Part shown: in pieces, positions 11,199-41,420 of the stretch
How positions within the stretch are numbered: position 1 is the first letter of the stretch
How the letters are laid out: each line of letters begins with the position of its first letter
Assembly: GCA_002724185.1 (NCBI GenBank)
Contig: PBOB01000066.1
Coordinates: 1-64,000, forward strand
Direction: 5' to 3'
DNA length: 64,000 nt
Source of the DNA: Acidiferrobacteraceae bacterium
Lineage (GTDB): Bacteria > Pseudomonadota > Gammaproteobacteria > Arenicellales > UBA868
Program-made: the position numbers and the translations under genes
Notes under the pieces: model-generated
What the model was told of the DNA's origin: nothing
The model's database searches: none
The model's input: only the letters and a program-made list of their open reading frames with translations

Positions 11199-12752
11199 GT
11201 GGATAACTTTATAGTCATCGGAGGCGGTAGTGCCGGTTGTGTAATAGCAAGTCGGCTATCAGAAGATCCTTCTATTCATGTAACATTAATGGAAGCTGGC
11301 CCTGCTACGTCTCATATAGGAATCGATGATCCAAAACGATGGCACACTCTTGGAGGCTCAGTTTTTGACTGGGCGTTCACAACTTCATGCCAAAAATATA
11401 CTGCGGGTCGTAAACATCAGTGGCCACGTGGAAAGATATTGGGTGGCTCAAGCAGTATCAATGCGATGGCGCATGTAAGAGGGCATCCTAGCGACTTTGA
11501 TGATTGGAAAAATGATGGATGCAATGACTGGTCATATGATGATTTATTGCCCTATTTTATTAAGTCAGAAACTTCAGCATATAGTGAGTCGCCTTATCAT
11601 GGAGCAACAGGCCCTCTACAATTAATGCAGCCAGATTCTCCACACGAAATAACGCAATGCTTTCTAGCCGCCGCTGAAGGCTTCGGCATGCAACCAATAG
11701 CTGAACACAATGGCGCCAAAATGTTAGGCCCCACATTGAACACACTAAATATAGTTGATAATAAGCGGCAAAGTGCAGCTGATGCTTACCTAAGGCCAGC
11801 TCTCGCGAGAAACAATATAACCGTAGTGGATAACTGCCTAGTTGATCGACTCTTAATCAACAAAAATGGTGGGTGTATTGGCGTCACTTATATTAAAAAT
11901 GGAAATACTAACGAAATATATAGTACAGCGGGAGTCATACTATGCGCCGGCGCGATTGGCTCTCCACAAATACTACTAAGATCTGGCATTGGGTGTGCAA
12001 AACGTGCCCAAAAACTCGGCATTCAGCCAACTATAGATCTACCAGGCGTTGGCCAGAACCTCCATGACCACTGCCTTGGTGCGGGCAATATGTACTTGTC
12101 CCGACGAGCTCTCCCCAAAAGCCAATACCAACATTCAGAATCGCTATTATATGTTGACACGAAAAGCTCTTGTGGCAAACCAGATATTGTACTTGCCTGC
12201 GTAGTACTGCCTGTTGCTACCGAACAATTTGAACTACCTACGGATGAGTCTGCATATACCATAATGTATGGAGTCACATCGCCAAAGAGTAGGGGAATGA
12301 TTGAACTGCAATCCACTGATCCGTTTGCGCATCCTATAATAGATCCGAATTATCTAGGCCATCCAGAAGATCGCATTTCATTCATAGATGCATTAGATTT
12401 TGCGAGAGAGATTGGCGCTTCTAGCATGTTGAGTGAATGGCGCAAGAGTGAGCACCTTCCAGGGCCGAATATACAATCGATAGCAGAAAAAACTATATTT
12501 AATGCTCAGGCTGCATTTACACACCATCATCCCGTAGGTACTTGTCGCATGGGCACAGATAGTACATCTGTCGTATCCCCGCGCCTTCAAGTCCATGGTA
12601 TAGAGAACCTATTTGTTGTCGATGCTTCAATTATGCCAAAGATTACGTCGGGCCCAACAAACGCGGCAGTAGTAGCAATAGCAGAGAAAGCCAGCGATAT
12701 CATCCAAAATCGTTCAACTCTCCAACCAGTCACAATCAAAGAGCGCATATAA
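11199..12752 (+). CDS. GMC family FAD-dependent oxidoreductase (choline dehydrogenase-like)
   Basis: 517 residues from a GTG that places the FAD-binding motif at the very N-terminus (NFIVIGGGSAGCVIASRLSE). Also seen: WPRGKILGGSSSINAMAHVRG (first GMC signature), CAGAIGSPQILLRSGIG (second signature), and the C-terminal HHHPVGTCRMG and GPTNAAVVAIAEKA that supply the active-site His and Asn. GMC enzymes oxidise primary alcohols; many use choline, but this one lacks betaine-gene neighbours. It sits between a RutC-like gene and a probable pyridoxine 4-oxidase, so an alcohol in the same pathway, for example 4-pyridoxic acid, is a possible substrate; that is inference. Its stop overlaps the next gene by one base (TAATG). 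Confidence 0.85.
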   Translation: MDNFIVIGGGSAGCVIASRLSEDPSIHVTLMEAGPATSHIGIDDPKRWHTLGGSVFDWAFTTSCQKYTAGRKHQWPRGKILGGSSSINAMAHVRGHPSDFDDWKNDGCNDWSYDDLLPYFIKSETSAYSESPYHGATGPLQLMQPDSPHEITQCFLAAAEGFGMQPIAEHNGAKMLGPTLNTLNIVDNKRQSAADAYLRPALARNNITVVDNCLVDRLLINKNGGCIGVTYIKNGNTNEIYSTAGVILCAGAIGSPQILLRSGIGCAKRAQKLGIQPTIDLPGVGQNLHDHCLGAGNMYLSRRALPKSQYQHSESLLYVDTKSSCGKPDIVLACVVLPVATEQFELPTDESAYTIMYGVTSPKSRGMIELQSTDPFAHPIIDPNYLGHPEDRISFIDALDFAREIGASSMLSEWRKSEHLPGPNIQSIAEKTIFNAQAAFTHHHPVGTCRMGTDSTSVVSPRLQVHGIENLFVVDASIMPKITSGPTNAAVVAIAEKASDIIQNRSTLQPVTIKERI

Positions 12753-13213: not shown

Positions 13214-13264
13214 CATTCAGTTGCTATCATTCAACATTAGGCTTGTTGAGTTGTGAGGGAAGAT

Positions 13265-14881
13265 GTGAAAAAAGAATCATCTTATGATTACATCATCGTC
13301 GGCGCCGGTTCCGCGGGCTGTGCTCTTGCTGCACGCCTCAGTGAAAATCCTGATTGCAAAATCTTACTAATTGAAGCTGGTGGATGGGATCGCGACCCAT
13401 TGATCCATATTCCGCTCACATGGGCCAAAATGCTGCTCGAACAAACCCATGACTGGGGATATTTCTGTGAACCAGAGGAAGCTGTGAATGGTCGGGCCAT
13501 TGAATGTGCGCGTGGTAAGATATTTGGTGGATCTTCGTCAGTTAACGCAATGGCATATGTGCGTGGTAATCGTGGTGACTACGATAGATGGGCAGCAAAT
13601 GGATTAGTCGGATGGTCTTATAAAGATGTACTCCCATATTTTAAGAAACTTGAAACTTGGGAACATGAAGACCCTTATCGTGGGAATTCTGGCCCATTGA
13701 ATGTCCAATACTGTCGATACAAAGATCCATTAGTCGACTCTTTTGCGGAAGCTGGCAAAGAAGCTGGCTATGGGTGGACAAACGACTACAATGGCAAAAC
13801 CCAAGAGGGTTTTAGTAAACTGCAAATGACCATAAAAGATGGGCGACGCTGCAGTGCCGCAACAGCTTATATTAGACCCATTAAGAATCGAAAAAATCTC
13901 ACCATTTCGGTTAACTCTTTGGCCAGTGAAATAATCTTCGAGCAAGATCGTGCTGTTGGTATCAAATATATTCAACGTAATCAAATTAATATTGCACGAG
14001 CAAGCCAAGAGGTAATCTTAAGTGCTGGTGTAATTAATACGCCCCAATTGCTAATGCTATCTGGAATTGGCAAATTCGATCATCTATCTCAACACAACAT
14101 CCAAACAAGAATTGATCGGCCTGGTGTTGGTCAGAATCTCCAGGATCAAATGTCTACTGTTATCCTCTATAAGCGAAAAGATCCAGGGCCATTCCATCGC
14201 ATGATGAGATATGATCGAATTGGCCGAGAATTGATTAAAGCATATTTGTTGGGCTCCGGAGGCGCCACAGATGTCCCAGGCGGCATTACAGCATTCCTCA
14301 ACAGTGACAACGATGCTCAATTACCGAACTTGCAACTCCTATTAACAGCTGCGCCATTAGGGGCCTGGCCATATCTAAGACCCTTCAAGAAGCCGTTCAA
14401 CGATGGCTTTGTATCTCGAGTTGTACTTCTCGATCCAGAAAGCCGCGGCACAATAACACTGAAATCTGCCAACATCTTGGATAAACCCGTAATAAAGCAA
14501 AATTTTCTGTCAACACCCAGAGATTGGGAAGTAATGAGGGCTGGACTGAGAATAGCACGAGAAATCGCTTCACAACCAAGTATGAAGCCCTTCATTGGTG
14601 CTGAAATCACACCCGGCAGCTCCAAAACATCAAATTATGATCTAGATCAGCATATTGCTTCAACAGCCATCACCTTGCATCACCCTTTAGGTACATGTCG
14701 CATGGGCAAACAAGACGATACATATGCCGTTGTCGATTCGGAGCTAAAGGTGATTGGTGTAGACGCGCTTCGCGTGGTAGATGGGTCTGTGATGCCAGAC
14801 CTTGTCCGTGGCAACATAAATGGCCCAATCATAATGATTGCGGAAAAAGCTGCTGATCTTATCCAGAACAAAATTCCTTGA
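13265..14881 (+). CDS. GMC oxidoreductase, probable pyridoxine 4-oxidase
   Basis: 538 residues from the GTG at 13265, preferred over GTG 13253 because AGGGA lies just upstream of it. FAD motif [19 protein letters not shown], then [49 protein letters not shown] and [15 protein letters not shown] with the GMC active-site His/Asn. The segments [23 protein letters not shown] and [11 protein letters not shown] resemble, as far as I recall, pyridoxine 4-oxidase of Mesorhizobium loti, which oxidises pyridoxine to pyridoxal with O2. It lies convergent to an operon with the next three enzymes of that pathway, which strongly supports this reading over a generic choline dehydrogenase. Confidence 0.7.
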
Positions 14882-14914: not shown

Positions 14915-15655
14915 CTACCAGCGCACCATGCCTGCATCGACATTAAGAACTTGACCCGTAATACGATGCGCTTCTGGCGAAGCAAGAAATACGACAGCAG
15001 GCGCAATATCAGAAGGTTGATTATGTCCCTTGATCGGTTGCAACATCTCAACAAACTCGAATGCATCTTTATGCGGAGTGCTCTGGACTCCTTCAGTATT
15101 TGTCAATCCAGGCGTAACACCATTGACGGTAATCTTATAGGCACCCAACTCTGTCGCTAACGCCCTAGTCAAACCAAACACGCCACCTTTCGCAGAAACG
15201 TAAGCTGCCATGTTAGGCGTTCCTGCAAAAATTGTGTTAGAAATAATATTAACAATACGCCCATACTCTTTTTTACGCATCACATCTGAGGAAGCGCGAC
15301 ACATTAAGAATGTACCATCTAAATTGACGCGCATTATTTGTCTCCAATGATCAAAATCAACATCATCCCATGCGATAAAAGGCACAATAGCCGCATTGTT
15401 GACGAGCACATCTACACCGCCATACTGTGTTACAACTGTCTCATGTAAACTGCTTACCTGCTGAGGGTCGCCAATATCACACTGAATCCCAATAGAACTA
15501 TTGCCACACTCCTCTGCAGTTGTATTAGCGCCCTCCGCATTTTGGTCTACCGAAATTACTAGAGCTCCTTCACTACCAAGTTGCAGTGCAACAGCCTTAC
15601 CTATACCTTGAGCTGAGCCAGTAACAATCGCTACCTGATCTTTAAAACGTGTCAT
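14915..15655 (-). CDS. Pyridoxal 4-dehydrogenase (short-chain dehydrogenase)
   Basis: 246 residues from the ATG at 15655, which has GGAGGA just upstream; an ATG 12 bases earlier lies within that ribosome site. SDR landmarks: VTGSAQGIGKAV (NAD-binding TGxxxGxG), VLVNNAAIVPF, a catalytic Asn/Ser/Tyr/Lys set with YVSAKGG. The stretches VPFIAWDDVDFDHWRQIM, FAGTPNMAAYVSAKGGV and LNVDAGMVRW closely resemble the tetrameric pyridoxal 4-dehydrogenase of Mesorhizobium loti, which converts pyridoxal hemiacetal to 4-pyridoxolactone with NAD. It is last in the operon after the aminotransferase and the lactonase, exactly the neighbouring steps. Confidence 0.8.
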   Translation of the reverse strand: MTRFKDQVAIVTGSAQGIGKAVALQLGSEGALVISVDQNAEGANTTAEECGNSSIGIQCDIGDPQQVSSLHETVVTQYGGVDVLVNNAAIVPFIAWDDVDFDHWRQIMRVNLDGTFLMCRASSDVMRKKEYGRIVNIISNTIFAGTPNMAAYVSAKGGVFGLTRALATELGAYKITVNGVTPGLTNTEGVQSTPHKDAFEFVEMLQPIKGHNQPSDIAPAVVFLASPEAHRITGQVLNVDAGMVRW

Positions 15656-15706
15656 ATCTTCCTCCATTCACTGATGATATTGCTGCCAAAATATTCCAAG
15701 GCAGAA

Positions 15707-16894
15707 CTACGCCGATGCATCTTTTACAATAGCTTTAGTCGCGGCATCAATGCCTGCCGCAGTATCAACATTATGCCCTAAATGATTGAGAGCCCCGCCT
15801 AACGCTGTGATCGCTATCAATGCATAAATCGGTTGCGCAACGAGACCCATATGGCCGATGCGTAACAGCTTGCCTAAAGTTTCATTTCTTCCGCTAGAAA
15901 AAGCTACTCCAAAAATGTTCCTGGCAGTCATTCTCAGGGATTCGTCTTCAACGCCATCAGGAATACGAACTGCCGTGGTAGTATCGGCAGCGATTGATTC
16001 ATCAACTGCCCAAAGATCGCAACCCATTGCGCGAATTCCAGCTCGGCATGCGCTGGCAGTTGTTCTATGGCGAGCCCAAACATTCTCAGGACCCTCCTCT
16101 AGATAATTATCAATGACTGCATTAAGGCCATTCATTTCCGCAACCGAAGGCGTAAACGGGAAGGGTTGGTCATGACGCCACGCATTTCTCCAATCTGAAA
16201 GACTGAGTGCAGACGCAAACGGTGCATCTTTATTATTGTCTATGTGCTGCCATGCGCGTTCATTGACCGCCATAATCGTTAGACCAGGTGCACCACCAAG
16301 GCATTTTGATGGGCCGGTAATAAATATATCAGCACAACAATCATTGGGGTGAATATTCATTCCCCCCCAAGATGAAACAGCATCTACTAATAAAAGCGCA
16401 TTATTGTCTCTAACAATCTTGCCGATTTCTTCGATTGGATTAATGGTTCCTGATGGTGTGTCATGATGAACCACGGACACCACACTAATATCTTTTCTTT
16501 TTGCAAACATTGAGTCTACTTGGTCTGGAGATATTGACTCGTTATATGGCACTTCTATTTCAAGAAGTTCCTTATTGTATCTTGCTGACCAGTAACCAAA
16601 ACCCTTTCCATATACTCCAGAAGCTAGATTCAGAACCACATCCTGCTTAGATATCAAGGAGGCCGCAGCAGCCTCAATACCTGGTGCTGGCTCACAATGC
16701 ATAATGAGCGCTGGGTAATCAATTCTTAAGGCTTCCGACACTTTATCATTAACATTTTCATAAAACTCCTGGAAATATGGATCGAAGTCATATTGAACTG
16801 GCGTTGCCATAGCGCGAAGCACTCGTGGATAAACGCCTACAGGGCCAGCCGATAAGGTAATGGCCGGCTCTGTCTGCGTCTGCTTTTTTTTCAT
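15707..16894 (-). CDS. Pyridoxamine-pyruvate aminotransferase (PPAT)
   Basis: 395 residues, class V aminotransferase fold. It would convert pyridoxamine and pyruvate to pyridoxal and alanine. Segments LSAGPVGVYPRVLRAM, LNLASGVYGKGFGYW, VVHHDTPSGTINPIEEIG, LVDAVSSWGGM and GPSKCLGGAPG match the Mesorhizobium loti enzyme as I know it. By count, the aldimine lysine falls at residue 197 and arginines at 336 and 345, the positions reported for the active-site Lys and substrate-binding Arg of that enzyme. An alternative is serine-glyoxylate or alanine-glyoxylate aminotransferase, but the neighbours (lactonase and pyridoxal dehydrogenase) make PPAT far more likely. A gagaggt ribosome site precedes the ATG. 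Confidence 0.85.
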   Translation of the reverse strand: MKKKQTQTEPAITLSAGPVGVYPRVLRAMATPVQYDFDPYFQEFYENVNDKVSEALRIDYPALIMHCEPAPGIEAAAASLISKQDVVLNLASGVYGKGFGYWSARYNKELLEIEVPYNESISPDQVDSMFAKRKDISVVSVVHHDTPSGTINPIEEIGKIVRDNNALLLVDAVSSWGGMNIHPNDCCADIFITGPSKCLGGAPGLTIMAVNERAWQHIDNNKDAPFASALSLSDWRNAWRHDQPFPFTPSVAEMNGLNAVIDNYLEEGPENVWARHRTTASACRAGIRAMGCDLWAVDESIAADTTTAVRIPDGVEDESLRMTARNIFGVAFSSGRNETLGKLLRIGHMGLVAQPIYALIAITALGGALNHLGHNVDTAAGIDAATKAIVKDASA

Positions 16895-16968: not shown

Positions 16969-17781
16969 TTAGGAATAAAATCCGGGCGCTTTAACATAAT
17001 TCGGAAAACTATCTGGATCATGAGAATAGAATAACTCCGCATCATGCTTTTCGGCCAATGTCTTCAATTTTTTTAGAGATTCAACGCCGGCAGTCGGATC
17101 CAAATGAAAACTCGCAATACACATCATGTCCATACTTTTTTGGCTGTAGCAAGCATCCGCTGTGAACAGCATAGGTCGTCTGTTTTTTAGCTCAACCATC
17201 ATACTGTAATGACCAGCAGTATGGCCAGGCGTCTCAAACAACCATATCCCCTTTGCAATTTCCTGATCACCAGATACCGTTTCAAAAGTCGGCGTAAAAA
17301 TATCCAGTTCAGGATCAAGAGCCGTCTTTAATTGATCAGATCGCTCTTTGGCTACATCAGACGAGAAAGTCAAGTCTGAATAACCCAGCATTTCGAATGG
17401 CTGCGGACACGCGCACACTTCTAATTCTTTTGTATGACAGATTGTGCAGGCTGTTGTCAGATGCTTATTACCGCCGCAATGGTCAAAATGATAATGCGAG
17501 TTAATTACATAATTAACGTCGGACGGCTTCAAATTGAGTTTCTCCAGCTGGCCCGGTATGGTTTGCTCCTTTGTTTGCAAAGGCTTCTCAAATGGCAGTA
17601 CTTTCTGCACATGATCATAGTCGTAACCAGTATCAAAAATATAACGCCCATCCTCATGCTCAATAAGCACGGAATAGGTTGGGAATCGCAATTCGCCGCC
17701 AGGTCCCCTATTCCAAAAGGCGTGAAACCCGTCAATGACCAAGCTCCCACCATCTAGAATATATACTTTGGTATCAGCCAT
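16969..17781 (-). CDS. 4-pyridoxolactonase (metallo-beta-lactamase fold)
   Basis: 270 residues; GGGAGGT lies just upstream of the ATG. It opens the lactone of 4-pyridoxolactone to 4-pyridoxic acid. The metal motif HYHFDH occupies residues 96-101 and PGHTAGHYS supplies a further His. The N-terminus (TKVYILDGGSLVIDGFHAFW, then NRGPGGELRFPTYS) and LPFEKPLQTKEQTIPG are close to the Mesorhizobium loti lactonase rather than to AHL quorum-quenching lactonases, which share the fold. It lies between the transporter permease gene and the PPAT gene, all on one strand. Confidence 0.82.
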   Translation of the reverse strand: MADTKVYILDGGSLVIDGFHAFWNRGPGGELRFPTYSVLIEHEDGRYIFDTGYDYDHVQKVLPFEKPLQTKEQTIPGQLEKLNLKPSDVNYVINSHYHFDHCGGNKHLTTACTICHTKELEVCACPQPFEMLGYSDLTFSSDVAKERSDQLKTALDPELDIFTPTFETVSGDQEIAKGIWLFETPGHTAGHYSMMVELKNRRPMLFTADACYSQKSMDMMCIASFHLDPTAGVESLKKLKTLAEKHDAELFYSHDPDSFPNYVKAPGFYS

Positions 17782-17839: not shown

Positions 17840-18775
17840 TTATCTTTCGCCACGAATATAAGGAAGGGCTAGCGCTGCCGGTAAATAACTATTACGACCG
17901 AGTAAAATCAGCATAACAATGACCATGGTGAAAGGCAACATCTGAACAACATCAGTTGGTATATTAAACCCTGCTACCTGCAAAGCAGTTGTTAGCGATA
18001 GACTCACACCAAATAACGCTGCTCCATAAAGCACCCATGTTGGATGCCCGCGCGCTAACATAGCCAATACAATACCAATAAACCCTGCTCCATGAATCAT
18101 ATGGGGCACAAAAATTCCTGCACCTATATTGGCTAGAAATGCGCCCCCTACGCCCGCCAAGAATCCTGTTGCGAGTACAGCCCATGTTCTGGTACTACGC
18201 ACGCTAACTCCAGTAACGTCTAGAGCAGCTGGTACATCACCAGCAGCTTGCAAATTTAAACCGACGTAAGTTCGTTTAAATAGCCATACCAAAAAGAAAA
18301 CAAGGCCAACTGCTAAATAAACTACTGGATGCCTATGAAAGAAAACTTCACCCAAATATGGAATGTCTCCAACTACGGGGATGACTAATGGCTCGACGGC
18401 GGATAAACGCGGATAGGTTCGACTAAATTGGAAATGATGAAGTAAGGCAGTTAGGCCATCGGCGCCTAAAGTAAGCGCGATACCGATTACGATCTGATTG
18501 AGCCCTAGGATCACACAGAATAGCACCATGAGCATGGCCACCGAAACACCGCCCAACCCGCCAAAGAGAAATCCAAGCCAAAAAGAATCAAAATAATAGG
18601 CGGCACAAAAACCCGTATAAGCTCCGACTAACATCATGCCCTCTAAGCCTATATTTAAGACGCCAGATTTTTCAGAGATTTGTTCGCCTATACCTGCCAA
18701 TAAAAGGGGTACACCGGCCGTGACCGATCCGAACAGAAGAGCTGTTACAAAAGTTTCTGTTAAGAGTTCAGACAT
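17840..18775 (-). CDS. BMP-type ABC transporter permease (YufQ-like), candidate vitamin B6 importer
   Basis: 311 residues with about eight to nine hydrophobic segments. It carries the family hallmark near residues 38-46 (LNIGLEGMMLVGAY) and GVSVRSTRTWAVLATGF typical of the second permease of nucleoside/BMP importers. It is the fourth gene after the solute-binding, ATPase and first permease genes, 6 bp behind the latter, and 58 bp ahead of 4-pyridoxolactonase. Known BMP systems move nucleosides or riboflavin; the genomic context here points to pyridoxine, pyridoxal or pyridoxamine. Confidence 0.85.
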   Translation of the reverse strand: MSELLTETFVTALLFGSVTAGVPLLLAGIGEQISEKSGVLNIGLEGMMLVGAYTGFCAAYYFDSFWLGFLFGGLGGVSVAMLMVLFCVILGLNQIVIGIALTLGADGLTALLHHFQFSRTYPRLSAVEPLVIPVVGDIPYLGEVFFHRHPVVYLAVGLVFFLVWLFKRTYVGLNLQAAGDVPAALDVTGVSVRSTRTWAVLATGFLAGVGGAFLANIGAGIFVPHMIHGAGFIGIVLAMLARGHPTWVLYGAALFGVSLSLTTALQVAGFNIPTDVVQMLPFTMVIVMLILLGRNSYLPAALALPYIRGER

Positions 18776-18781
18776 AATGTT

Positions 18782-19840
18782 CTATGTTGTCCTCTGACGC
18801 CAACGATGATCAAGATACTCAACGATAGCTAAAAACATTAGCAACAAACCGACTAATACCAGCACGAAAAATGTTGGAACACCAAGTCTTCGAGAAGCGC
18901 TTTCTCCGCCGATCATCAGCACCGCAAAAAATAGAACAAATGCGATGGTGCCAATACCATGAAATCGAGCTAAGAATACAAGCGGAACTACGAGTAACCC
19001 ATACGCAGGATCCCAATCAGCTCTGACGGTTCCCCATACACCCAAAATCTCGACGGCACCACCCATACCAGCAAGCGCTGCACTTAATCCAAAAGCAACA
19101 TAAGTTAGAAACCGAACATTGAGACCAGCGTGAACCGCAGCTTTTGGATTGGCTCCCACAACTTGTAGATTCAAACCAAACGACGTCCTAGTCATTAGGA
19201 AATGAACAAAGAGAACCGAGAGTAAACCTAATATAACACCATGATGAATGATTGTATCGAACAACCTTGGCAATCGATCCTCGACTGCTAATGTCACAGT
19301 TTGCGGCACCGTAGTCGCAGGATCATTAAACGGAATCTTGATCAATACATTAGCGAGACTAATTCCAATGAATGTCATCATCAACGTAGTGATGATCTCG
19401 TTAACACCATGATTTGCTTTTAAATATGCTGGAATCAACGACCAAATAGCGCCAATCGTCGCAGCCAATATGAAGCATATACAAATCATCGCCCAATTCG
19501 GAATGATAGTATTCAAGGGTGAACCTACGGCTGCAACAAGCACCGCGGCTAACAAAAACTGCCCATCAACACCTAGATTCCATATTCCAGCTCGGAAGGC
19601 TACGATCAATCCTGCAGCAACAAAAAGTAGGGGCGCAGTCCTAACAAGGGTAGCCTGAAAACCAGTCCAGCTTAGTAGACCACGCTTAACCACATACCAG
19701 TAATAAGCTATGGGATCTTTGCCGAGTATTACGAGTATCAATCCACCAACCACGAGTGCTAACAAAATCGGTGCAATGATCCTTATTGCGGACCGAGCTA
19801 ACTCAGATACTCGCCCTATGTTTATATACCGACTAGTCAA
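18782..19840 (-). CDS. BMP-type ABC transporter permease (YufP-like), candidate vitamin B6 importer
   Basis: 352 residues, strongly hydrophobic with around eight to ten membrane segments. Family landmarks: IWNLGVDGQFLLAAVL, NHGVNEIITTLMMTFIGI, VGANPKAAVHAGLNV and LVFLARFHGIGTIAF. The start is a TTG whose bases overlap the stop of the ATPase gene (TTGA), so translation is probably coupled. No better ATG exists near the N-terminus. It should form a heterodimeric channel with the following permease. Confidence 0.85.
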   Translation of the reverse strand: MTSRYINIGRVSELARSAIRIIAPILLALVVGGLILVILGKDPIAYYWYVVKRGLLSWTGFQATLVRTAPLLFVAAGLIVAFRAGIWNLGVDGQFLLAAVLVAAVGSPLNTIIPNWAMICICFILAATIGAIWSLIPAYLKANHGVNEIITTLMMTFIGISLANVLIKIPFNDPATTVPQTVTLAVEDRLPRLFDTIIHHGVILGLLSVLFVHFLMTRTSFGLNLQVVGANPKAAVHAGLNVRFLTYVAFGLSAALAGMGGAVEILGVWGTVRADWDPAYGLLVVPLVFLARFHGIGTIAFVLFFAVLMIGGESASRRLGVPTFFVLVLVGLLLMFLAIVEYLDHRWRQRTT

Positions 19841-21438
19841 TTTAAGGAGGCCCCAGTCATAAGTGATCCGATCCTATTCTCTGATCCAGGATTAGCTTCA
19901 ACAATGCCGACCATTTGACCCTGATACATGACACCGATCCGATCAGCTAAATCAATTAACTCTTCGAGCTCTGTGGAAATCAAGAGTGTAGTTATACCCC
20001 TAGATGCTCCTTCACGTATACGGTCGCGGGCAGATGCAATGTTCTGTAAGTCAAGTCCATACGTAGGTTTATTCAGTAATACTATTTCGGCATTGTCATC
20101 CATCTCGCGTGCAAACAGCGCCTTTTGGATATTGCCTCCCGACAGTCGGCCAATAGATGTCCGTTCAGAAGGTGTTCGAATATCATACTTTTTGATTTGA
20201 CGTCTTGCAAAGGAAAAAATTGCACGCCATTTGGTGAAACCATATTTCCAATATGGATTTTCGCCAATACTTTTGGCCACTAAATTAGTAGCTACTGAAT
20301 GATCAGACACTATACCCTCGCCAACACGGTCATCTGTTAGATAACGAAATCCCCGATCTCTCCTTTCGGAGACTTTGAGTACCGAAATATCTTCTCCGTC
20401 AAGCTCAATCTGGCCAGTTGCAAGATCGCGCTGCCCCGCCAAAACCTCCGCTAAGTGCTTCTGCCCATTGCCATCAATGCCGGCAATACCAAATATTTCA
20501 CCCCTAGCTACCTCAAATGAAACAGCAGATAACCCACACTCTCCCGGCAATGCGATTGTTGAAACTTCCTTGGCTGCAACAGAGATTGATCTAGTTTGAC
20601 TATCCGCGAAAACATTTCGAACAGCCACATTTGTACCTCCATTATCAACAGTCGAATCGCTCTGACCTTCTTTATCGAACATCATACGGATAATTTGTTC
20701 GATTGTTTCCTCTTCTCCCATGCCAGATCCATGATCAGGATTAATCTGACCTGCAAACGCACCGTTGCGTAGCACCGAAATACGATCACAAAGTTCGTAT
20801 GCCTCTCTTAACTTATGTGTGACAAACACGATAGCCACTCCGTTTTCGCGTAGCCGCTTCATAACATGACCAAGTTCAATAACGCCTTGTGGCGTCAGCA
20901 TTGAGGTCGGTTCATCCAGTATCAGAACTCGCTCCCCACCACGCCATAGAGCGCGCATGATTTCGACCTGCTGCCGCTGACCAAGAGACAGGCTACCAAC
21001 TAGAGCCTCTGGATCAATTGTTACTGCTAATAGCCCGCATAGCTCAGCGAATCGACTACGTGCAGATTCTTTATCCAGTTTGTTTTTCCAGGAGCCGCCA
21101 AGCATCAGGTTTTCAATAACTGATAAAGTGGGGGCAAGCAACACATGTTGAAAAACCGTTCCTATGCCCGCCAGCAGACTATCACGTGGAGAGCCAAGCC
21201 GACGCTCCACACCGCCAATTATAATGGTCCCAGCATCAGGTCGATGAAGTCCAGCAAGTATCGAGATAAGAGTGGACTTCCCTGCGCCATTCTCGCCAAG
21301 CAAAGCGTGAATCTCTCCCGCGTAAATGTCGAGAGTAATATCCTGATTGGCGACAACGCCCGGGAAAAACTTAGAGATACCTCTTAACTCAATAGCTGAG
21401 GTATGATGAATTTTTGAGTCGCTAGCTGATAATGCCAC
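19837..21438 (-). CDS. BMP-type ABC transporter ATP-binding protein with two ABC domains (YufO-like)
   Basis: 533 residues from a GTG. Domain 1 (about residues 15-245): Walker A LLGENGAGKSTL, signature LSLGQRQQVEI, Walker B VLILDEPTSML. Domain 2 (about 295-530): degenerate Walker A GIDGNGQKHLAEVL, signature LSGGNIQKALFARE, Walker B region EIVLLNKPTYGLD, in which the usual E is replaced by K (LLNKPT). A weakened second site is normal for this family. It energises the two permeases and lies downstream of the binding-protein gene across a strong hairpin. Confidence 0.88.
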   Translation of the reverse strand: MALSASDSKIHHTSAIELRGISKFFPGVVANQDITLDIYAGEIHALLGENGAGKSTLISILAGLHRPDAGTIIIGGVERRLGSPRDSLLAGIGTVFQHVLLAPTLSVIENLMLGGSWKNKLDKESARSRFAELCGLLAVTIDPEALVGSLSLGQRQQVEIMRALWRGGERVLILDEPTSMLTPQGVIELGHVMKRLRENGVAIVFVTHKLREAYELCDRISVLRNGAFAGQINPDHGSGMGEEETIEQIIRMMFDKEGQSDSTVDNGGTNVAVRNVFADSQTRSISVAAKEVSTIALPGECGLSAVSFEVARGEIFGIAGIDGNGQKHLAEVLAGQRDLATGQIELDGEDISVLKVSERRDRGFRYLTDDRVGEGIVSDHSVATNLVAKSIGENPYWKYGFTKWRAIFSFARRQIKKYDIRTPSERTSIGRLSGGNIQKALFAREMDDNAEIVLLNKPTYGLDLQNIASARDRIREGASRGITTLLISTELEELIDLADRIGVMYQGQMVGIVEANPGSENRIGSLMTGASLN

Positions 21439-21470
21439 CGTGCACGTTTTCCTCTGAGGAGAAAATCGGA

Positions 21471-21501
21471 AGAGTGGCGACCATTAAAACGTCGCCACTC
21501 T
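21471..21501 (-). terminator. Intercistronic hairpin between binding-protein and ATPase genes
   Basis: A perfect 11-bp stem AGAGTGGCGAC / GTCGCCACTCT (21471-21481 and 21491-21501) with a 9-nt loop, starting 21 bases after the binding-protein stop on the minus strand. A short T-run (ATTTTC) follows, so it could act as a partial terminator or as a barrier to 3' exonuclease, giving excess binding protein over the membrane parts. The effect is inferred. Confidence 0.7.
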
Positions 21502-21522
21502 CCACATCGCAACAGAGAACTG

Positions 21523-22581
21523 TTATCCCTCGTTTATATCGACGGACGTCATCAGTGCGCGAACAGCCTGTGCATCGGAAATATTATCAACTGAAACAGA
21601 CCCTGAGATAATCTTATCCCGCAAGTCCATTAATTCATTCCAAATATTCGCGGGTATATGTGGGCTTTTAAGCAAACGAACAGAATCGTTCTCCAAGCCA
21701 ATCTGATACCCACGTGTTCCGAAAGTGCCGTCCATGAGATCGCTCACCATGGCATCATAGACTGGAACCATGTCCCAAAGCACAGATGACAATAGATGGC
21801 CTTTGTCGATCTCGGTCTTATCACCAATCACGTCAATAAACCAAACCTTGCCACCATCGACCGCCTTAGTCGTTTCAACCGCTTGAATCATCCCAAAAGA
21901 CGACCCGTTACCCTGACCAAAGATAACATCAGCACCGGCAGAGATAACAGATTCAGTCACCCGACGGCCGCCTGCGGCATCGCCGTAAGCGGCTGGACCG
22001 ATTACAGCGTAGATGATCTTAGTTGAATCGGATGCTGCTTTAACACCCATTGCAAAAGCCGCTGATTGCGAGTTCCACGAGGGTGGCTCACCAGAAACAA
22101 CAATCCCTACACTCCCGGTTCTCGTGGTGTGGGCCGCTAATACGCCGGCAAGATAAGCTCCGTCATGACCGCTTAACGTGTAGTCGGTAACGAGTCCTTC
22201 AACTAAGCCTTGCGGAGTATCAACAATGGCGACGGGGACTCCAGTTTCTTGAGCGATTTCTGGGCCAGCTGTGTTATAGCCACTCGCATGGCAAATCATG
22301 AGACTTGCTCCCTCCTCCGCGAGTTCACGCAAAGTTGGCCGAACATCACCATAACCAAGCCCTTCAGCCGGCATAAACTCAAGGCCATATTTTTCGGCCA
22401 CAGCTCGGGCTGCATCTACACCTTGCTGATTCCAGCCATAGTCAGTTCCTTGCTCTGGTACCAAGACCGCGATCGCTTTAAGGTCGGCTGCCGAAGATAA
22501 TGCAGAAAAACCAAGGCCAAACACAATCAGGGCAGCGGAGATCAACATTTTAGATATTTGAGCAACAAGCGTTTGTCTCAT
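21523..22581 (-). CDS. BMP family ABC transporter substrate-binding protein, candidate vitamin B6 binder
   Basis: 352 residues with a signal peptide (hydrophobic residues about 12-27, cleavage near SSA-AD) and no lipobox Cys, so a soluble periplasmic protein rather than the lipoprotein form. BMP/PnrA-like features: DYGWNQQGVDAARAV, GYGDVRPTLRELAEEGASLM, CHASGYNTAGPEIAQE, VIFGQGNGSSFGMIQAVE, VWFIDVIGDKT and LLSSVLWDMVPVYD. GAGGAGG precedes the ATG. Family members bind purine nucleosides or riboflavin. Because it heads an operon whose last three genes degrade vitamin B6, I infer it binds a B6 vitamer. The gene runs divergently from a LysR regulator. Confidence 0.82.
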   Translation of the reverse strand: MRQTLVAQISKMLISAALIVFGLGFSALSSAADLKAIAVLVPEQGTDYGWNQQGVDAARAVAEKYGLEFMPAEGLGYGDVRPTLRELAEEGASLMICHASGYNTAGPEIAQETGVPVAIVDTPQGLVEGLVTDYTLSGHDGAYLAGVLAAHTTRTGSVGIVVSGEPPSWNSQSAAFAMGVKAASDSTKIIYAVIGPAAYGDAAGGRRVTESVISAGADVIFGQGNGSSFGMIQAVETTKAVDGGKVWFIDVIGDKTEIDKGHLLSSVLWDMVPVYDAMVSDLMDGTFGTRGYQIGLENDSVRLLKSPHIPANIWNELMDLRDKIISGSVSVDNISDAQAVRALMTSVDINEG

Positions 22582-22802: not shown

Positions 22803-23696
22803 ATGATTCTACATGCAGACAAAATGGCACTATTTGCGGAAGTGGCTAGAGCGGGTAGTTTTACAGCAGCCGCAACAAAAATGGGGTTACCTAAATCAAC
22901 CGTCAGCGAAAGAATTACGCAATTAGAAAAACGCCTTGATACCCGACTACTAAATCGTTCAACCCGACGACTAAGCCTTACCTGGGCTGGTGAGCGATAC
23001 CTCGAAAAATGCCAAGCGTTGTTGGATATCCTAGGTGAAGCTGACGAAACTATTCAACAAATCAAAGCAGAGGCAAATGGCGAATTACGCATTACTGCTG
23101 CTGGCCGCTTTAGTGAGATGGCCCTACCAGATCTACTAGTACATTTCCAAGAACTATATCCAAAGGTCACATTTGACATAGTCGTTGAGGACGAACCCCT
23201 AGATATCATTGAGAATGGTTTTGATATAGCCTTTCGTACAGGTGATCTTAAAGACTCTTCGCTCGTCAGTTACCAATTATTAGATAACCATAAATTCCTA
23301 GTTGCGAGCACAGAGTATCTCTCTGAACATCCAATTAATACATTTGAAGATCTTTCTAGCGCGAGAGCGATTATTCATCCTGGATATCCCATCTGGAAAA
23401 TGTCTGATCAAAGCCGGACCAAAATCGTACGACCAAAACCATCTGTAAAAGTAAATAATATGATATTCGCTCGTAACTTATGCGAGAAAGGTGGCGGAGT
23501 GACAGTGTTGCCCGAAGGCTTAATTAAGCCGCAGCCAGGAACGCCTAGAATGACTCGAGTTCTCCCGGACTGGGACATTGAAGCAAATGCACTATACATG
23601 GTTTATTCGAGTCGTAAACATAACACGCCCGCATTTAAAGCGTTCACATCTTATGTAATCGAAAAGTACTCACACTTCTATAATAACCTCAACTAA
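22803..23696 (+). CDS. LysR family transcriptional regulator
   Basis: 297 residues. The N-terminal winged helix-turn-helix is clear (MALFAEVARAGSFTAAA, PKSTVSERITQLEKRL, TRLLNRSTRRLSLT), followed by a periplasmic-binding-protein-like effector domain from about residue 92 (GELRITAAGRFSEM, DIAFRTGDL, FLVASTEYL, GGGVTVLPEGLI). No ribosome site precedes ATG 22803; Met8 is an alternative. It is transcribed away from the transporter/B6 operon, the usual position of an activator responding to a pathway intermediate. The effector is not predictable from sequence. Confidence 0.9.
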   Translation: MILHADKMALFAEVARAGSFTAAATKMGLPKSTVSERITQLEKRLDTRLLNRSTRRLSLTWAGERYLEKCQALLDILGEADETIQQIKAEANGELRITAAGRFSEMALPDLLVHFQELYPKVTFDIVVEDEPLDIIENGFDIAFRTGDLKDSSLVSYQLLDNHKFLVASTEYLSEHPINTFEDLSSARAIIHPGYPIWKMSDQSRTKIVRPKPSVKVNNMIFARNLCEKGGGVTVLPEGLIKPQPGTPRMTRVLPDWDIEANALYMVYSSRKHNTPAFKAFTSYVIEKYSHFYNNLN

Positions 23697-23745: not shown

Positions 23746-24696
23746 TTAGCCTGAAGGGTCAGTTGCACCATCAAGCACTTTGCGAGCATCAACTAATAAC
23801 TTGGCCCTCCTCTTACGAAGAGATTCGATCTCTTCTTGGGAATATGCATATATGCCCTGACCCGTTTTCATCCCCAAATTCCCAGAAATAACCTTTCCTC
23901 GAATCATGTCACTAACATCAGACCTATCACAAAGATCTTTGTTGAGATAACTGCCAACGGCTTCATATATATCCAGACCTGCCATATCAAGCAATGCCAT
24001 TGGCCCAATCACTGCCAGCTTATAGCCTATGCCCCACGATACGCAGGTATCCAAGTCTTTAGCATCTATAACGCCGTGATCCACTAAGTCTATGCATTCT
24101 CTAAGTAAGGCATAGAGCACACGATTCTCAACAAATCCGGGTATATCTTTTTTTACAACTACTGGAATTAGCTTAAGTCTACGAATACAAGTAGTCATAG
24201 CTTCTACTACATCTGGTGATGTAGATTTTCCCGCGATAACCTCTATCATAGGAATAATATGTGGTGGATTAGACCAATGCATGCCCACAAACCTACTTGG
24301 TTTAATTGCTCCCTCCTGTAATTGACTAACTGGAATACCCGAAGAATCACTCGCCAAAATACAATCTTGAGATACGATTAACTCGAGCTCCCTGAACAGG
24401 GCTACCTTTAGCTCTAGGTTTTCAGGAATAGTCTCTATAACCAAATCAGCATTACTTACACATTCTTGGAGACTAGAAGTCAAAGTTATATCGGTCCGAA
24501 TATCTTGGCCAGCCCCCAATGACTGCAACACTTTTCTTGCTACTTTTATTTTGTCATCGGCCTGCCCGCGAGCCTCTTCATCAGCATCATAAGCGGAAAC
24601 TGATATACCACCGCTCGCTAGGGTTGCCACGATTCCAGGCCCCATCGTACCTAGCCCAATAACAGCTGCGCGCTTGATATTGTGTAGTGCTGGCAT
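23746..24696 (-). CDS. 3-hydroxyacyl-CoA dehydrogenase family enzyme, possible FHMPC dehydrogenase
   Basis: 316 residues: Rossmann domain (AAVIGLGTMGPGIVATLASGG) then the C-terminal helical domain. The catalytic His lies in GMHWSNPPHIIPMIEVIAG instead of the HFFNP of fatty-acid enzymes, and VENRVLYALLRECIDLV and DTCVSWGIGYKLAVIGPMAL follow. This pattern resembles, from memory, 5-formyl-3-hydroxy-2-methylpyridine-4-carboxylate dehydrogenase of Mesorhizobium loti, a member of this family acting after 4-pyridoxic acid in vitamin B6 degradation. The B6 genes next door support this. A lambda-crystallin-like or carnitine dehydrogenase is the main alternative. It is last in a minus-strand operon. 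Confidence 0.6.
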   Translation of the reverse strand: MPALHNIKRAAVIGLGTMGPGIVATLASGGISVSAYDADEEARGQADDKIKVARKVLQSLGAGQDIRTDITLTSSLQECVSNADLVIETIPENLELKVALFRELELIVSQDCILASDSSGIPVSQLQEGAIKPSRFVGMHWSNPPHIIPMIEVIAGKSTSPDVVEAMTTCIRRLKLIPVVVKKDIPGFVENRVLYALLRECIDLVDHGVIDAKDLDTCVSWGIGYKLAVIGPMALLDMAGLDIYEAVGSYLNKDLCDRSDVSDMIRGKVISGNLGMKTGQGIYAYSQEEIESLRKRRAKLLVDARKVLDGATDPSG

Positions 24697-24714: not shown

Positions 24715-25317
24715 CTATGCAGCAACAACACGTTGATATGCTGGTAGCCCTGAAATAACCTTATGCCAGCGATTTAATTCTGGTAATTCCGGAAGTATTA
24801 CCGGAAAACCTAGGCACCGGTTGCAGATAGGCCCTAGCGCTATATCAGCGATAGTCATATGACTGCCTGCTAGCCATTCATTAGATTTCAAGTGACTATT
24901 CAAAATCGTCAAATGCATACCCAAGCTTTCAGCCATTGAAGATAAATTGGAGCTACGCTCCTCTTCGGGTTTTTTTGTTTCTTTAAAAACCTCTACGTAA
25001 TTAGCATTCAAAGAAGCCAATAACCAATCCATCCAAGTTTCACATTGAGATCGTAACTTCGGGTCAGATGGCAGTAATTCAGACGAGGTCTTGGCGCATA
25101 AGTAACGCAGAATTGTGTTTGATTCCCATACGACATGCTCTTGATCAATAAGAGTCGGTACTTTGCCAGTAGGGTTCAAACTTAAGTAAGATGAGTCGCC
25201 CGTATTTCCAAACTGCCGACCATAATCCTCCCGAGTGTATTCCAGATCAAGCTCTTCAAGCAGCCATAAAACCTTTTGAACGTTACCAGATGTTTTTCTA
25301 CCTAGTAATCTCAGCAT
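24715..25317 (-). CDS. Glutathione S-transferase family protein
   Basis: 200 residues from the ATG at 25317, which has TGAGGAAC upstream; the frame is open further up but the GST fold begins with MLRLLGRKTSGNVQKVLWLL. The thioredoxin-like domain includes LNPTGKVPTLID with the cis-Pro and WESNTILRYL for glutathione binding; the helical domain has WLAGSHMTIADIALGPI. Bacterial GSTs of this length include isomerases of ring-cleavage products such as maleylpyruvate. Its operon contains a gentisate-type dioxygenase, so an isomerase role is plausible but unproved. Confidence 0.85.
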   Translation of the reverse strand: MLRLLGRKTSGNVQKVLWLLEELDLEYTREDYGRQFGNTGDSSYLSLNPTGKVPTLIDQEHVVWESNTILRYLCAKTSSELLPSDPKLRSQCETWMDWLLASLNANYVEVFKETKKPEEERSSNLSSMAESLGMHLTILNSHLKSNEWLAGSHMTIADIALGPICNRCLGFPVILPELPELNRWHKVISGLPAYQRVVAA

Positions 25318-25363
25318 AATTTTGTTCCTCAGTAAGTAAATATCATAATTGCTAGCTCGACAC

Positions 25364-25765
25364 CTATAATGGCTTATATGCAATTGCGTCCATTTCAATC
25401 TTAGTGCTAATTGCCGCTCGCGCCTCTACCGTAGTTCTCGCAAGTAACCCTTCTGGAAAATATTCGGCGAAGGTTCTGTTATAACGCCCAAAGTCGCGAG
25501 CGTCCTCCAAAAAGACTGTGATCTTAACAATATTTTCCAGATCCGCACCATCACACCGTAGAACTCGACGAATTGATTCTATTGTTGCCCTACACTGCTC
25601 TTCAATTGTGCCATCACACATTTTTCCATCTGCATCCTTTGCGACTTGTCCAGACACAAATATGTAATCTCCGGCACGTACAGCTGGATGAAATGGAAGG
25701 TTCGGATTCTTTTCCCCAATCGGATGAATGTTTACTTTGTTATCTCTCTTTGTTACTACCGACAT
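25364..25765 (-). CDS. RidA family (enamine/imine deaminase) protein
   Basis: 133 residues with AAGGAG upstream of the ATG. RidA fold signatures: VRAGDYIFVSGQVAKDADG, EEQCRATIESIRRVLRCDG, IVKITVFLEDARDFGRYN, ARTTVEARAA with the substrate Arg, and KIEMDAIAYKPL with the conserved Glu. RidA proteins hydrolyse reactive enamines and imines. In this operon it could act on nitrogenous intermediates formed when a pyridine ring is opened; that assignment is inference. Confidence 0.85.
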   Translation of the reverse strand: MSVVTKRDNKVNIHPIGEKNPNLPFHPAVRAGDYIFVSGQVAKDADGKMCDGTIEEQCRATIESIRRVLRCDGADLENIVKITVFLEDARDFGRYNRTFAEYFPEGLLARTTVEARAAISTKIEMDAIAYKPL

Positions 25766-25800: not shown

Positions 25801-26928
25801 CTACCAGACCGATGTCTCGATGATATCAACACCTCGCTGGCGATCAATAATATAAATCAATCCACGTTCGTCTATAGTCACGTCATTAGTAGATGCTAGA
25901 CCATGACCAGATGGCGCGTCAGGCTCAAAAAAGCCTATTTCCCTGGGCAAAAAAGGATCGGAAACATCAACTAATCGAAGCCCTTTCGCGAACCAGGCGA
26001 ACGGAATTACAGTACCAGTTATTTTCTCGGATGGCTGGTGACAACCCATCATAGGTGGTTGTGGTTCACCGTCTATATCTAAATCCGGAACTTGAAATGT
26101 TGAAATTGGGACCGGGTTAGACTCATTCGTAATATCGAAAATCCAGGTAAACGCAGGGGCAGCGTCCCATAGTTTTGCCACATCTTCATCGGCTACAATC
26201 ATGACATCTCTACCCTTAAGTCGCTCGGGCATTGCCAAACAAGTATGTGTTGGATGAGGAAACACGGAGCTAGTGTTAACGGCGGATACTAAGGTCGGTC
26301 TTGACATATCACTGATGTCAAGAATAAAAAAACCGTGGTGCCAATAACTGACATAAAGCCGATCCCCTCTTCGCAATGGATGATGACAACGTGGTGGAAC
26401 CCAACTATCCCATGGGTACGGCTCCCCGCCTGCCTCCCACTGCCCTGGAATCCACCAACGGCCGACCTCTTGTGGACTACTAGGGTCAATCAAATCCAAA
26501 ATCATAACGATGTTACCAATGTAACCTTCGACAGTCGGTGAGATATACGCATATCGGCCGTCAAAACTATATCTATGTACTCCTCGGCCTCCAGTTGTCC
26601 ATTTCGTAATCAGAGACGGATCAGCGGGTTTACTTACGTCATATATTGCTATACCACCTCCGAATTCCTGAGAGCCTTCCGTTCCCAATCGCTCATGATT
26701 GACCAACATAATGTCATTAAAAACCCGGACTTTATGGGAATGCCACCCTTTAGGCATACCTATACGGGCCACTTCTCTGGGATGAGCGGGATCCGATATG
26801 TCAAATAGGCTGGTCCCTGCCGGCTCATGCATATGCCCAACAAACAAGGTATCACCATCAACCCATACCTGGCCTCCTCCTGGGCAATCAATATGAGCTA
26901 CATGCGATGTATTCTTAACTCTTGGCAT
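25801..26928 (-). CDS. LVIVD-repeat beta-propeller protein
   Basis: 375 residues, no signal peptide. Repeated units of the form SLFDISDPAHPREVARI, IAIYDVSKPADPSLITKW, MILDLIDPSSPQEVGRW, FILDISDMSRPTLVSA, LRLVDVSDPFLPREIGFF mark LVIVD-type propeller blades. Many His residues (HSHKVRVF, PPRCHHPL, FPHPTHTCL, MMGCHQP) sit at equivalent places and could line a metal or substrate site. It is cotranscribed with a dioxygenase and a RidA. Function unknown; a ring-cleavage accessory or a hydrolase is a guess. Confidence 0.75.
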   Translation of the reverse strand: MPRVKNTSHVAHIDCPGGGQVWVDGDTLFVGHMHEPAGTSLFDISDPAHPREVARIGMPKGWHSHKVRVFNDIMLVNHERLGTEGSQEFGGGIAIYDVSKPADPSLITKWTTGGRGVHRYSFDGRYAYISPTVEGYIGNIVMILDLIDPSSPQEVGRWWIPGQWEAGGEPYPWDSWVPPRCHHPLRRGDRLYVSYWHHGFFILDISDMSRPTLVSAVNTSSVFPHPTHTCLAMPERLKGRDVMIVADEDVAKLWDAAPAFTWIFDITNESNPVPISTFQVPDLDIDGEPQPPMMGCHQPSEKITGTVIPFAWFAKGLRLVDVSDPFLPREIGFFEPDAPSGHGLASTNDVTIDERGLIYIIDRQRGVDIIETSVW

Positions 26929-27002: not shown

Positions 27003-28148
27003 TCAGCGGTCGAGTCTAACTATCTCGCCTGAACCAGTCTTCCCAAATTTCGAGTAGAAACCCAATGTCTTAAGTGTAGGCTCATCGCTGGCAACGAATA
27101 GTATCGCCCTATCTGTTTGAGATCCATTGACGTGCTCACACCAATGCCCCCCTGGCACCGCAACAGTATCGAATGGAGCCCAATCAAATCGTTCCCCGTC
27201 AATCATGCTATAACCCGACCCTTCTAATGGGGCTAATAGTATCGATGCATTTTGCTTCATAGGAAGAGTTTGCTCACCAGGTCGGAGCATCTGAGCAAAG
27301 AAAGTCATCGTATTGTAAATTGGCCTGCCGCGCAAAGGATCAACGTACTCAATCAGTATGCCTTCAAATGGATCACCTTCCCAATCCTTGTACCGATCAA
27401 GCAACTCTAACATTTGCTCCCATCTGTAGACATACATTGGTGAAGCATTGCCCGTGCCCCGCTGGTGTGAAACAAATCTTGGCAAGAATCCGCCTTGGCC
27501 ATAAATTTGTTCTGAGTAATTTGTGCAAAACCGCTCCGACTGCATCCGTTTAGAGACAATTACACCCTCCTCTTCTTCTGTGTAGTCGTGTTCAAAATGT
27601 AAAGAATTTAATGCTTCTGCCAATGGCAAATCGAGCACACTTAGATTAATTGCCGGTTCCGCCCCTTCATTCCCATGATTATGCCAAGTATCGTGAGGTG
27701 TTAGCACGAGATCTCCTGGCCCAAAAACAATATTCTCCCCCTCCACTCCGGTAAAGTTTTGATTCCCAGTTAAACCTAAACGGATTGCATTAGGAGAATG
27801 CCGATGTGGCGGCATGATCTCTGTTGGATCGTTTAGTCTATATGCCATATAGAGTGTAGTTACAGTCGCCCTACTCGGAGCAAGACCGGGATTAACTAAC
27901 ACGAGAGAACGACGTTCAGAATTCTCCATCTTGATAAGTTCGGCCGAACGATATAACAAGGGCTTGATAGCATTCTCATAATTCCAGCTAAATGGAATAG
28001 CCTTGCGCTTATCCATCACTTGCTGGTCTTCATCGTGATCAGAACTTGCATCAATCGCCCAGTAGGGCGCCATATTGCTCTTGTATACATCACGATGAAG
28101 GCTATCTAATGCTTCCACACGTTCAATTTCCCTTTTTGTATTGACCAT
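27003..28148 (-). CDS. Gentisate 1,2-dioxygenase-like bicupin protein
   Basis: 381 residues from ATG 28148, which has GGAGGA at ideal spacing; the ATG 12 bases earlier forms part of that site. The first cupin has PPHRHSPNAIRLGLTG, VFGPGDLVLTPHDTWHNHGN, giving the three His Fe(II) ligands of gentisate and 1-hydroxy-2-naphthoate dioxygenases. The second cupin (about residues 275-370: MLRPGEQTLPMKQNASILL, FDWAPFDTVAVPGGHWCEHVN) has lost most ligands, which is common in this family. The enzyme should cleave a hydroxylated ring between adjacent carbons. It starts an operon with LVIVD, RidA, GST and an FHMPC-dehydrogenase-like gene, so a hydroxypyridine substrate is possible. Confidence 0.75.
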   Translation of the reverse strand: MVNTKREIERVEALDSLHRDVYKSNMAPYWAIDASSDHDEDQQVMDKRKAIPFSWNYENAIKPLLYRSAELIKMENSERRSLVLVNPGLAPSRATVTTLYMAYRLNDPTEIMPPHRHSPNAIRLGLTGNQNFTGVEGENIVFGPGDLVLTPHDTWHNHGNEGAEPAINLSVLDLPLAEALNSLHFEHDYTEEEEGVIVSKRMQSERFCTNYSEQIYGQGGFLPRFVSHQRGTGNASPMYVYRWEQMLELLDRYKDWEGDPFEGILIEYVDPLRGRPIYNTMTFFAQMLRPGEQTLPMKQNASILLAPLEGSGYSMIDGERFDWAPFDTVAVPGGHWCEHVNGSQTDRAILFVASDEPTLKTLGFYSKFGKTGSGEIVRLDR

Positions 28149-28558
28149 ATTCTCCTCCATGATTTACCTACATTGTCTTTTGGGAAATCTAGAACAACAC
28201 TCATCAAATTAGTCGCTGATAAGCTAATAGAATCCTTCATGCCGCTTTCACTATAACTCAGCAGAAGGCTGGCAGAAAACCCATCGCACAAACCCCCCAA
28301 TTCTATCGATATTGATAGTACACCATAGCTAGAACGTCTCCAGGTCCGACAAATGGCGATTTTGCAACAGAACTAGCCATGGAACCCAAAATCGATTAAT
28401 AATAAAATCTGGATACTTTTTCTCTATTCCTTGAATAATTTAATTAGTAGTAAATATAGATTATCAGGAGGGCAGTGGCAGCAATTGAGCTTGGTAGTAG
28501 AATACGTCGAGGGGAAGCCATTCCTTGAAAGGATTAGAATAATTGCTGGTAGCGCAAT
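28149..28558. promoter_or_regulatory. Divergent spacer upstream of bicupin and PhyH-type genes
   Basis: 410 bp without a supported gene. It should hold promoters for both directions. A weak plus-strand candidate is TTGAAT (28431-28436) with TATAGA (28455-28460). AGGAGGG at 28466-28472 precedes a 17-codon frame (GTG 28475 to TGA 28528), not supported as a gene. Nothing else is clear. Confidence 0.3.
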
Positions 28559-40357: not shown

Positions 40358-40606
40358 TCCTTAATTTCTCTCCTGTTCGGCAACTATATAAACCTGCCTG
40401 ATATCTATTTTGTAAACCATTATACCTACCTACATCATAATAACTATTTCGAGTCCAGAACAACGTATTTTGATTGAAAAATAGTCAAATGTGGCTGCAA
40501 ATTATAATAGACACGAGACTGGGATAACCTAGTTTACTACTTGGCTATATTCGTTGGTATATTAGGCACCAAAACTCAACCTCTAAGCATGACGAGCAGG
40601 TGATAG

Positions 40607-41383: not shown

Positions 41384-41420
41384 TACATCAAGAAGGAGTG
41401 CACCACACTTCGTCGCACGT

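Follow-up and report, generated by a model that had tools for sequence, protein, structure and literature searches.

A putative vitamin B6 ABC importer of the BMP family and a candidate cupin route of B6 degradation on a gammaproteobacterial contig

Results and Discussion

An importer operon containing genes of vitamin B6 degradation

The stretch of DNA analyzed here (the window) comprises the first 64,000 nucleotides of contig PBOB01000066.1 from an Acidiferrobacteraceae bacterium (assembly GCA_002724185.1), a gammaproteobacterium. Four adjacent genes on its minus strand encode an ATP-binding cassette (ABC) transporter of the BMP family which, with a probability of about 0.8, would import vitamin B6 compounds and feed a B6-degradation pathway. 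Judged from the sequence, the free vitamers pyridoxine, pyridoxal and pyridoxamine are most likely its substrates.

In order of transcription, the four genes encode a BMP/PnrA-family periplasmic substrate-binding protein (21523..22581; NF047927, 473 bits against a cut-off of 400; PF02608), an ATP-binding protein with two fused nucleotide-binding domains, recognized also by its motifs (19837..21438; NF047930, 716 bits, cut-off 670), permease 2 (18782..19840; NF047929, 530 bits, cut-off 400; PF02653) and permease 1 (17840..18775; NF047928, 508 bits, cut-off 465; PF02653). On the same strand follow 4-pyridoxolactonase (16969..17781; NF047925, 473 bits, cut-off 325; best PDB match 3aj3, a 4-pyridoxolactonase, E = 2.5e-110), pyridoxamine-pyruvate transaminase (PPAT; 15707..16894; NF046070, 616 bits, cut-off 600) and an SDR-type pyridoxal 4-dehydrogenase (PLDH; 14915..15667; NF047923, 393 bits, cut-off 325). 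The gaps between these seven genes are 84, -4, 6, 58, 74 and 39 bp, and the Pfam and NCBIfam assignments are concordant for every one of them. The original prediction of a complete binding protein-ATPase-permease-permease set, placed on one strand with short gaps ahead of the B6 genes, is thus confirmed with all its coordinates; the importer had also been described as fused into the B6 operon, which is correct as to adjacency, but no genes are fused.

All four subunits exceed the cut-offs of the NCBIfam equivalog models NF047927-NF047930, each titled 'putative B6 ABC transporter'; the three enzymes likewise exceed curated cut-offs for these B6 enzymes. So, although a B6-specific member of the BMP systems had been proposed as undescribed, four models for it already exist, and the idea of a B6 importer is right in direction but not new as a prediction. 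It is supported by a recurring gene order, by neighbors that pass the cut-offs for B6 enzymes and by the replacement of ribose-anchoring residues in the binding protein. Compared with the NCBIfam family, the window has the same gene order and neighbors as Mesorhizobium and differs only in its host, which is gammaproteobacterial where the members are usually alphaproteobacterial; it is a new member of this family.

The BMP protein (352 amino acids) has an N-terminal signal-like segment that ends in ...ALSSAADLK, and its gene start is preceded by a good ribosome-binding site, AGGAGG. The first domain of the ATPase (533 amino acids) is intact, with Walker A GENGAGKS at 48, the signature LSLGQ at 150 and Walker B LILDEP at 172, whereas the second is degenerate at Walker A and B (GIDGNGQ and LLNKP).

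Recurrence of the gene order

A scan of GTDB genomes, one per species, yielded 280 relatives of the BMP protein, and gene content was examined in the top 80 loci (65-77% identity); many close Mesorhizobium relatives are among them, so that the following locus counts are not independent. Among homologous loci with 4 kb or more of sequence after the BMP gene, 70/70 contain the full four-gene importer. Lactonase, PPAT or PLDH occurs in 60 of the 62 loci with at least 8 kb downstream, and all three occur in 57. The gap between permease 1 and the lactonase is below 150 bp in 66/68 loci (median 51 bp). Because of these three counts, the adjacency of importer and B6 genes is not due to chance, and the order is not unique to the window. 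The loci span Rhodospirillales, Rhizobiales, Dongia, Skermanella, Bauldia and Acuticoccus. As for the two loci without linked B6 genes, the genome of one (L044) has a PPAT elsewhere (63% identity); the other (L077) is considered below.

The same BMP importer stands ahead of lactonase, PPAT and PLDH in the cluster for vitamin B6 pathway I of Mesorhizobium loti (L080). This locus is the canonical M. loti pathway: the solved M. loti proteins are matched by its MHPC oxygenase (E = 1e-255), its HMPDC decarboxylase (3e-138) and its AAMS hydrolase (4e-166). The upper enzymes of pathway I, PPAT, PLDH and 4-pyridoxolactonase, are all found above cut-off in the window; however, the three lower enzymes are absent there, and a cassette with a cupin gene is present instead. 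The two clusters also differ in a second importer: in Rhizobiales B6 clusters, an NMT1/THI5-type ABC importer lies between the FHMPC dehydrogenase and the BMP gene (L080, 6479-9435; L056, 6703-9438), and the window has none at that position.

A third type of locus was recognized on plasmids of Rhizobium daejeonense and Ochrobactrum quorumnocens (L024 and L025). It contains the importer, PPAT, an HpaB-type hydroxylase, a flavin reductase, two amidases and MmgE/PrpD, with a 2,5-dihydroxypyridine dioxygenase in addition in L024, and possibly represents another B6 or hydroxypyridine route. The PPAT of R. daejeonense is above cut-off. On a Thioclava plasmid (L026), the importer, with a BMP protein above cut-off at 417 bits, is accompanied by an HpaB-type hydroxylase and amidases. 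Thus, the importer is combined with three types of lower pathway, namely MHPC oxygenase, cupin, and HpaB/amidase with PPAT (R. daejeonense), and its substrate should therefore lie in the upper part that they share.

The binding pocket

BmpA, a nucleoside-binding protein, holds the nucleobase between Phe27 and Phe176 and contacts the ribose through Asp225 and Lys242 (PMC13325309). In our alignment, these four columns are occupied by Trp50, Tyr199, Ile252 and Trp269 in the BMP protein of the window, and by the same residues in 83/83 sequences of the B6 clade. Relative to nucleoside binders of the PnrA family, with which a comparison had been proposed, the aromatic sandwich is kept, but the Asp and Lys that anchor the ribose are replaced throughout. 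The column of BmpA Asp98 was dropped as pocket evidence, since its placement depends on the alignment.

AtzT is a BMP protein that binds free heteroaromatic compounds (guanine and 2-hydroxyatrazine), the ring being sandwiched by two aromatic residues, with Glu165 and Ser97 as guanine contacts (PMC6834077). It resembles the protein of the window in family and in this sandwich, but the two contact columns hold Ser168 and Ala99 in the window protein (82/83 relatives each), and AtzT is tied to other pathways.

An AlphaFold2 model of the window protein (pLDDT 87, pTM 0.84) was compared with solved structures by Foldseek; the best PDB matches were PnrA, Lbp, AtzT and BmpD, with RfuA also found (TM-scores 0.67-0.75). 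The likeness to the nucleoside and riboflavin binders PnrA, BmpA, BmpD and RfuA extends from the fold to the aromatic sandwich and to the families of the cognate ATPase and permeases. In the simplest reading, the pocket would fit a small flat ring without ribose, which is compatible with a B6 vitamer but no proof of one. The host genome encodes three BMP proteins with three pocket signatures, namely AtzT-like (L001: S, E, W), nucleoside-type (L002: F, F, D, K) and the B6-type of the window. Because the first two are present, the nucleoside and nucleobase niches look filled.

Proposed function and alternative substrates

Based on the observed identity, order and conservation of the genes and on the aligned pocket residues, we infer the substrate, the direction of transport, the regulation and the flux through the pathway. 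The BMP protein, secreted to the periplasm, would close on the flat 3-hydroxypyridine ring of a B6 compound between Trp50 and Tyr199; the permease pair and the double ATPase would then move the compound into the cytoplasm. Inside the cell, transaminase, dehydrogenase and lactonase would convert pyridoxamine and pyridoxal to 4-pyridoxic acid, whose ring the products of neighboring genes would oxidize and then open.

The foremost alternative, to which we give about one chance in four, is that the importer takes up an oxidized B6 product (4-pyridoxic acid or 4-pyridoxolactone) and so scavenges an excreted catabolite instead of the vitamers. The lactonase gene lies directly downstream, at the short median gap given above, in nearly all loci, and the second ABC importer of the Rhizobiales loci could carry the vitamers. 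However, PPAT and PLDH, which would serve no purpose unless pyridoxamine or pyridoxal were taken up, are part of the same operon in 57/62 loci, and the pocket has not obviously gained a positively charged residue that could hold a carboxylate, although this is a weak point, taken from the alignment alone.

An unlikely but more general possibility is an importer of N-heterocycles (several 3-hydroxypyridines) that has been co-opted by different catabolic clusters. The versions of Thioclava and R. daejeonense, which sit with an HpaB-type hydroxylase, amidases and a flavin reductase, fit such a function, as does the score of the Thioclava BMP protein, only 417 bits, though above the B6 cut-off. 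These are, however, the most divergent members (53-62% identity), R. daejeonense keeps its PPAT, and the pocket columns are identical throughout. It is very improbable that the genes encode a common BMP importer of nucleosides or nucleobases which merely happens to lie beside B6 genes: fold, family and the nearest solved structures agree with it, but the linkage to B6 genes is kept across alphaproteobacterial orders, the ribose anchors and the guanine contacts of AtzT are replaced, and the host has separate paralogues of both types.

Several points weigh against the uptake of vitamers by the BMP importer. We found no report, in the open-licence literature, of B6 being bound or transported by a member of the BMP family. 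The pocket was deduced by alignment to solved structures with only 20-25% identity. L077, one of the two loci without linked B6 genes, belongs to a metagenome-assembled genome without PPAT, and on the Thioclava plasmid no recognized PPAT, PLDH or lactonase lies within 14 kb of the importer. Finally, the NMT1-type importer could be the B6 importer in the Rhizobiales clusters, the BMP importer then serving a derivative.

A known precedent for the import of a B6 compound by a binding-protein-dependent ABC system is P5PA of Actinobacillus, which imports pyridoxal 5'-phosphate (PLP). Its binding protein, however, belongs to another family (AfuA type), and has nanomolar affinity for PLP but affinities only in the millimolar range for pyridoxal and pyridoxamine (PMC8427247). 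Only PdxU, PdxU2/HmpT and P5PA are named as characterized prokaryotic B6 transporters in a comparative-genomics study of PLP genes (PMC9997740).

Neighboring genes

A LysR-family regulator gene (22803..23696, plus strand; PF03466 and PF00126) diverges from the BMP gene, with 221 bp between them, and lies between the importer operon and a second group of genes on the minus strand (28160-23746). Regulation of the B6 operon by this gene is probable. Scans for promoters and terminators gave no more matches than in shuffled sequences, and a search against Rfam gave no match.

Two genes for GMC oxidoreductases are encoded on the plus strand. The first (13253..14881), kept in most B6 loci, is choline dehydrogenase-like and also matches pyridoxine 4-oxidase (4ha6, E = 1e-78), which is not its best match; it may act as a pyridoxine oxidase or as a 4-pyridoxic acid dehydrogenase. 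The second (11199..12752), kept mainly in Rhodospirillales-type B6 loci, is a candidate for a role in pyridoxine or pyridoxic acid oxidation.

A cupin cassette in place of the known lower enzymes

At the operon-proximal end of the second minus-strand group lies a gene for a homologue of FHMPC 5-dehydrogenase (23746..24696; NF042925, 469 bits, just below the cut-off of 500; best PDB match 4om8, E = 3e-106). The cassette adjoining it encodes a glutathione S-transferase (GST) or maleylacetoacetate-isomerase-like protein (24715..25398; PF02798 and others), a Rid-family (RidA-like) imine/enamine deaminase (25364..25765; TIGR00004, 78 bits, below cut-off), an LVIVD-repeat (beta-propeller-like) protein (25801..26928; PF08309) and a gentisate/salicylate-type cupin ring-cleavage dioxygenase (27003..28160; TIGR02272; PDB 2d40, gentisate dioxygenase, E = 2e-46). 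Because the cupin reaches only 195 bits, far below the TIGR02272 cut-off of 442, it is to be regarded, on sequence, as a relative and not an orthologue of gentisate 1,2-dioxygenase. Its residues His119, His121 and His160, which we take to be the metal ligands of the cupin core, are invariant in nine sequences. The LVIVD, Rid and GST genes accompany it in 32/33 cupin loci with complete flanks.

Whole-genome searches were made in 24 genomes with a B6 cluster, the window genome included. Nine of them encode MHPC oxygenase at 95-100% identity to L080, together with HMPDC decarboxylase at 86-100% and AAMS hydrolase at 88-100%; in these nine, the cassette-type cupin was not found (best match 32%). 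The other 15 encode the cupin (59-100% identity) and none of the three lower enzymes, save an interrupted 50% fragment of MHPC oxygenase in Skermanella and a 40% aldolase-family protein in Pseudohoeflea. The window genome, which is 93% complete, lacks all three. The cassette and the known lower enzymes are thus mutually exclusive, no genome (0/24) having both. In Mesorhizobium, the remainder of the locus is collinear over some 12 kb, with 82-90% identity at the DNA level, and it is the cassette that differs. Since the FHMPC dehydrogenase is kept in both locus types, the exchange of enzymes should concern the compound it forms, 3-hydroxy-2-methylpyridine-4,5-dicarboxylate (HMPDC). HMPDC carries a hydroxyl beside a carboxyl, the arrangement attacked by salicylate-type cupin dioxygenases.

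The gene replacement, which is observed directly, suggests a hitherto undescribed way of cleaving the vitamin B6 ring; from it we infer the substrate and products. We consider it somewhat probable that the window encodes a third way of B6 degradation, in which the cupin would directly open the salicylate-like ring of HMPDC, where OH at C3 neighbors COOH at C4, with neither a decarboxylation step nor a flavin monooxygenase involved. If the bond between the hydroxyl- and carboxyl-bearing carbons is cleaved, an imine of pyruvate would result, the kind of compound on which RidA naturally acts, and the GST-type isomerase and the RidA-type deaminase would process the ring-opened product to pyruvate and ammonia. 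The BMP importer would supply both this and the classic route. A cupin route of B6 degradation was not found reported in the open-licence literature.

Origin of the B6 island

The B6 genes form an island (window 10757-31000) that is alphaproteobacterial in type, although the genome is gammaproteobacterial. At a distance of 0.6 kb on the same contig lies metG, the only copy of the methionyl-tRNA synthetase gene in the genome, whose product is 72% identical to that of a same-genus genome and about 57% identical to those of Escherichia and Aeromonas (the best matches in a plasmid collection). The B6 BMP family is above cut-off in 1/100 relatives and in 1/369 members of the class, each time in the window genome itself. 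In a class-wide search, the window genome alone combines the BMP protein with PPAT, which shows how rare the combination is. In a quick tree, the BMP protein of the window falls within a Rhodospirillales group, though support is modest. Because the host is a gammaproteobacterium and the cluster is otherwise alphaproteobacterial, it was likely acquired from alphaproteobacteria, though not very recently, since the third-position GC content (GC3) of the island matches that of the host.

Misbinning of the contig was largely rejected on account of the gammaproteobacterial affinity of the single-copy methionyl-tRNA synthetase and the matching GC3, whereas an assembly chimera is still a formal possibility. 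The alphaproteobacterial look of the cluster, a window ferrochelatase only about 39% identical to those of relatives and an alphaproteobacterial-style 5-aminolevulinate synthase on the contig would be in keeping with misbinning.

This 5-aminolevulinate synthase gene (640 bits, cut-off 339), typical of alphaproteobacteria, is near a sialic/pseudaminic-acid-synthase-like gene (window 4031-5248 and 6494-7369, plus strand). Elsewhere in the window (36613-43445, minus strand), genes for hydantoinase/caprolactamase-like subunits (CapA/CapB relatives, far below the cut-offs) were recognized, with two alpha-like copies.

Implications

Transporters for unphosphorylated B6 vitamers in bacteria are an acknowledged gap (PMC9997740). 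The BMP B6 family is widespread, tied to fully characterized enzymes and marked by a clear pocket signature, so that a single binding assay could settle the whole family. The degradation of vitamin B6 has been called the best understood catabolic pathway of a cofactor (PMC3538738). If our reading of the cassette is true, it would add a new ring-cleavage route to B6 catabolism and tie salicylate-type dioxygenases to the degradation of a vitamin.

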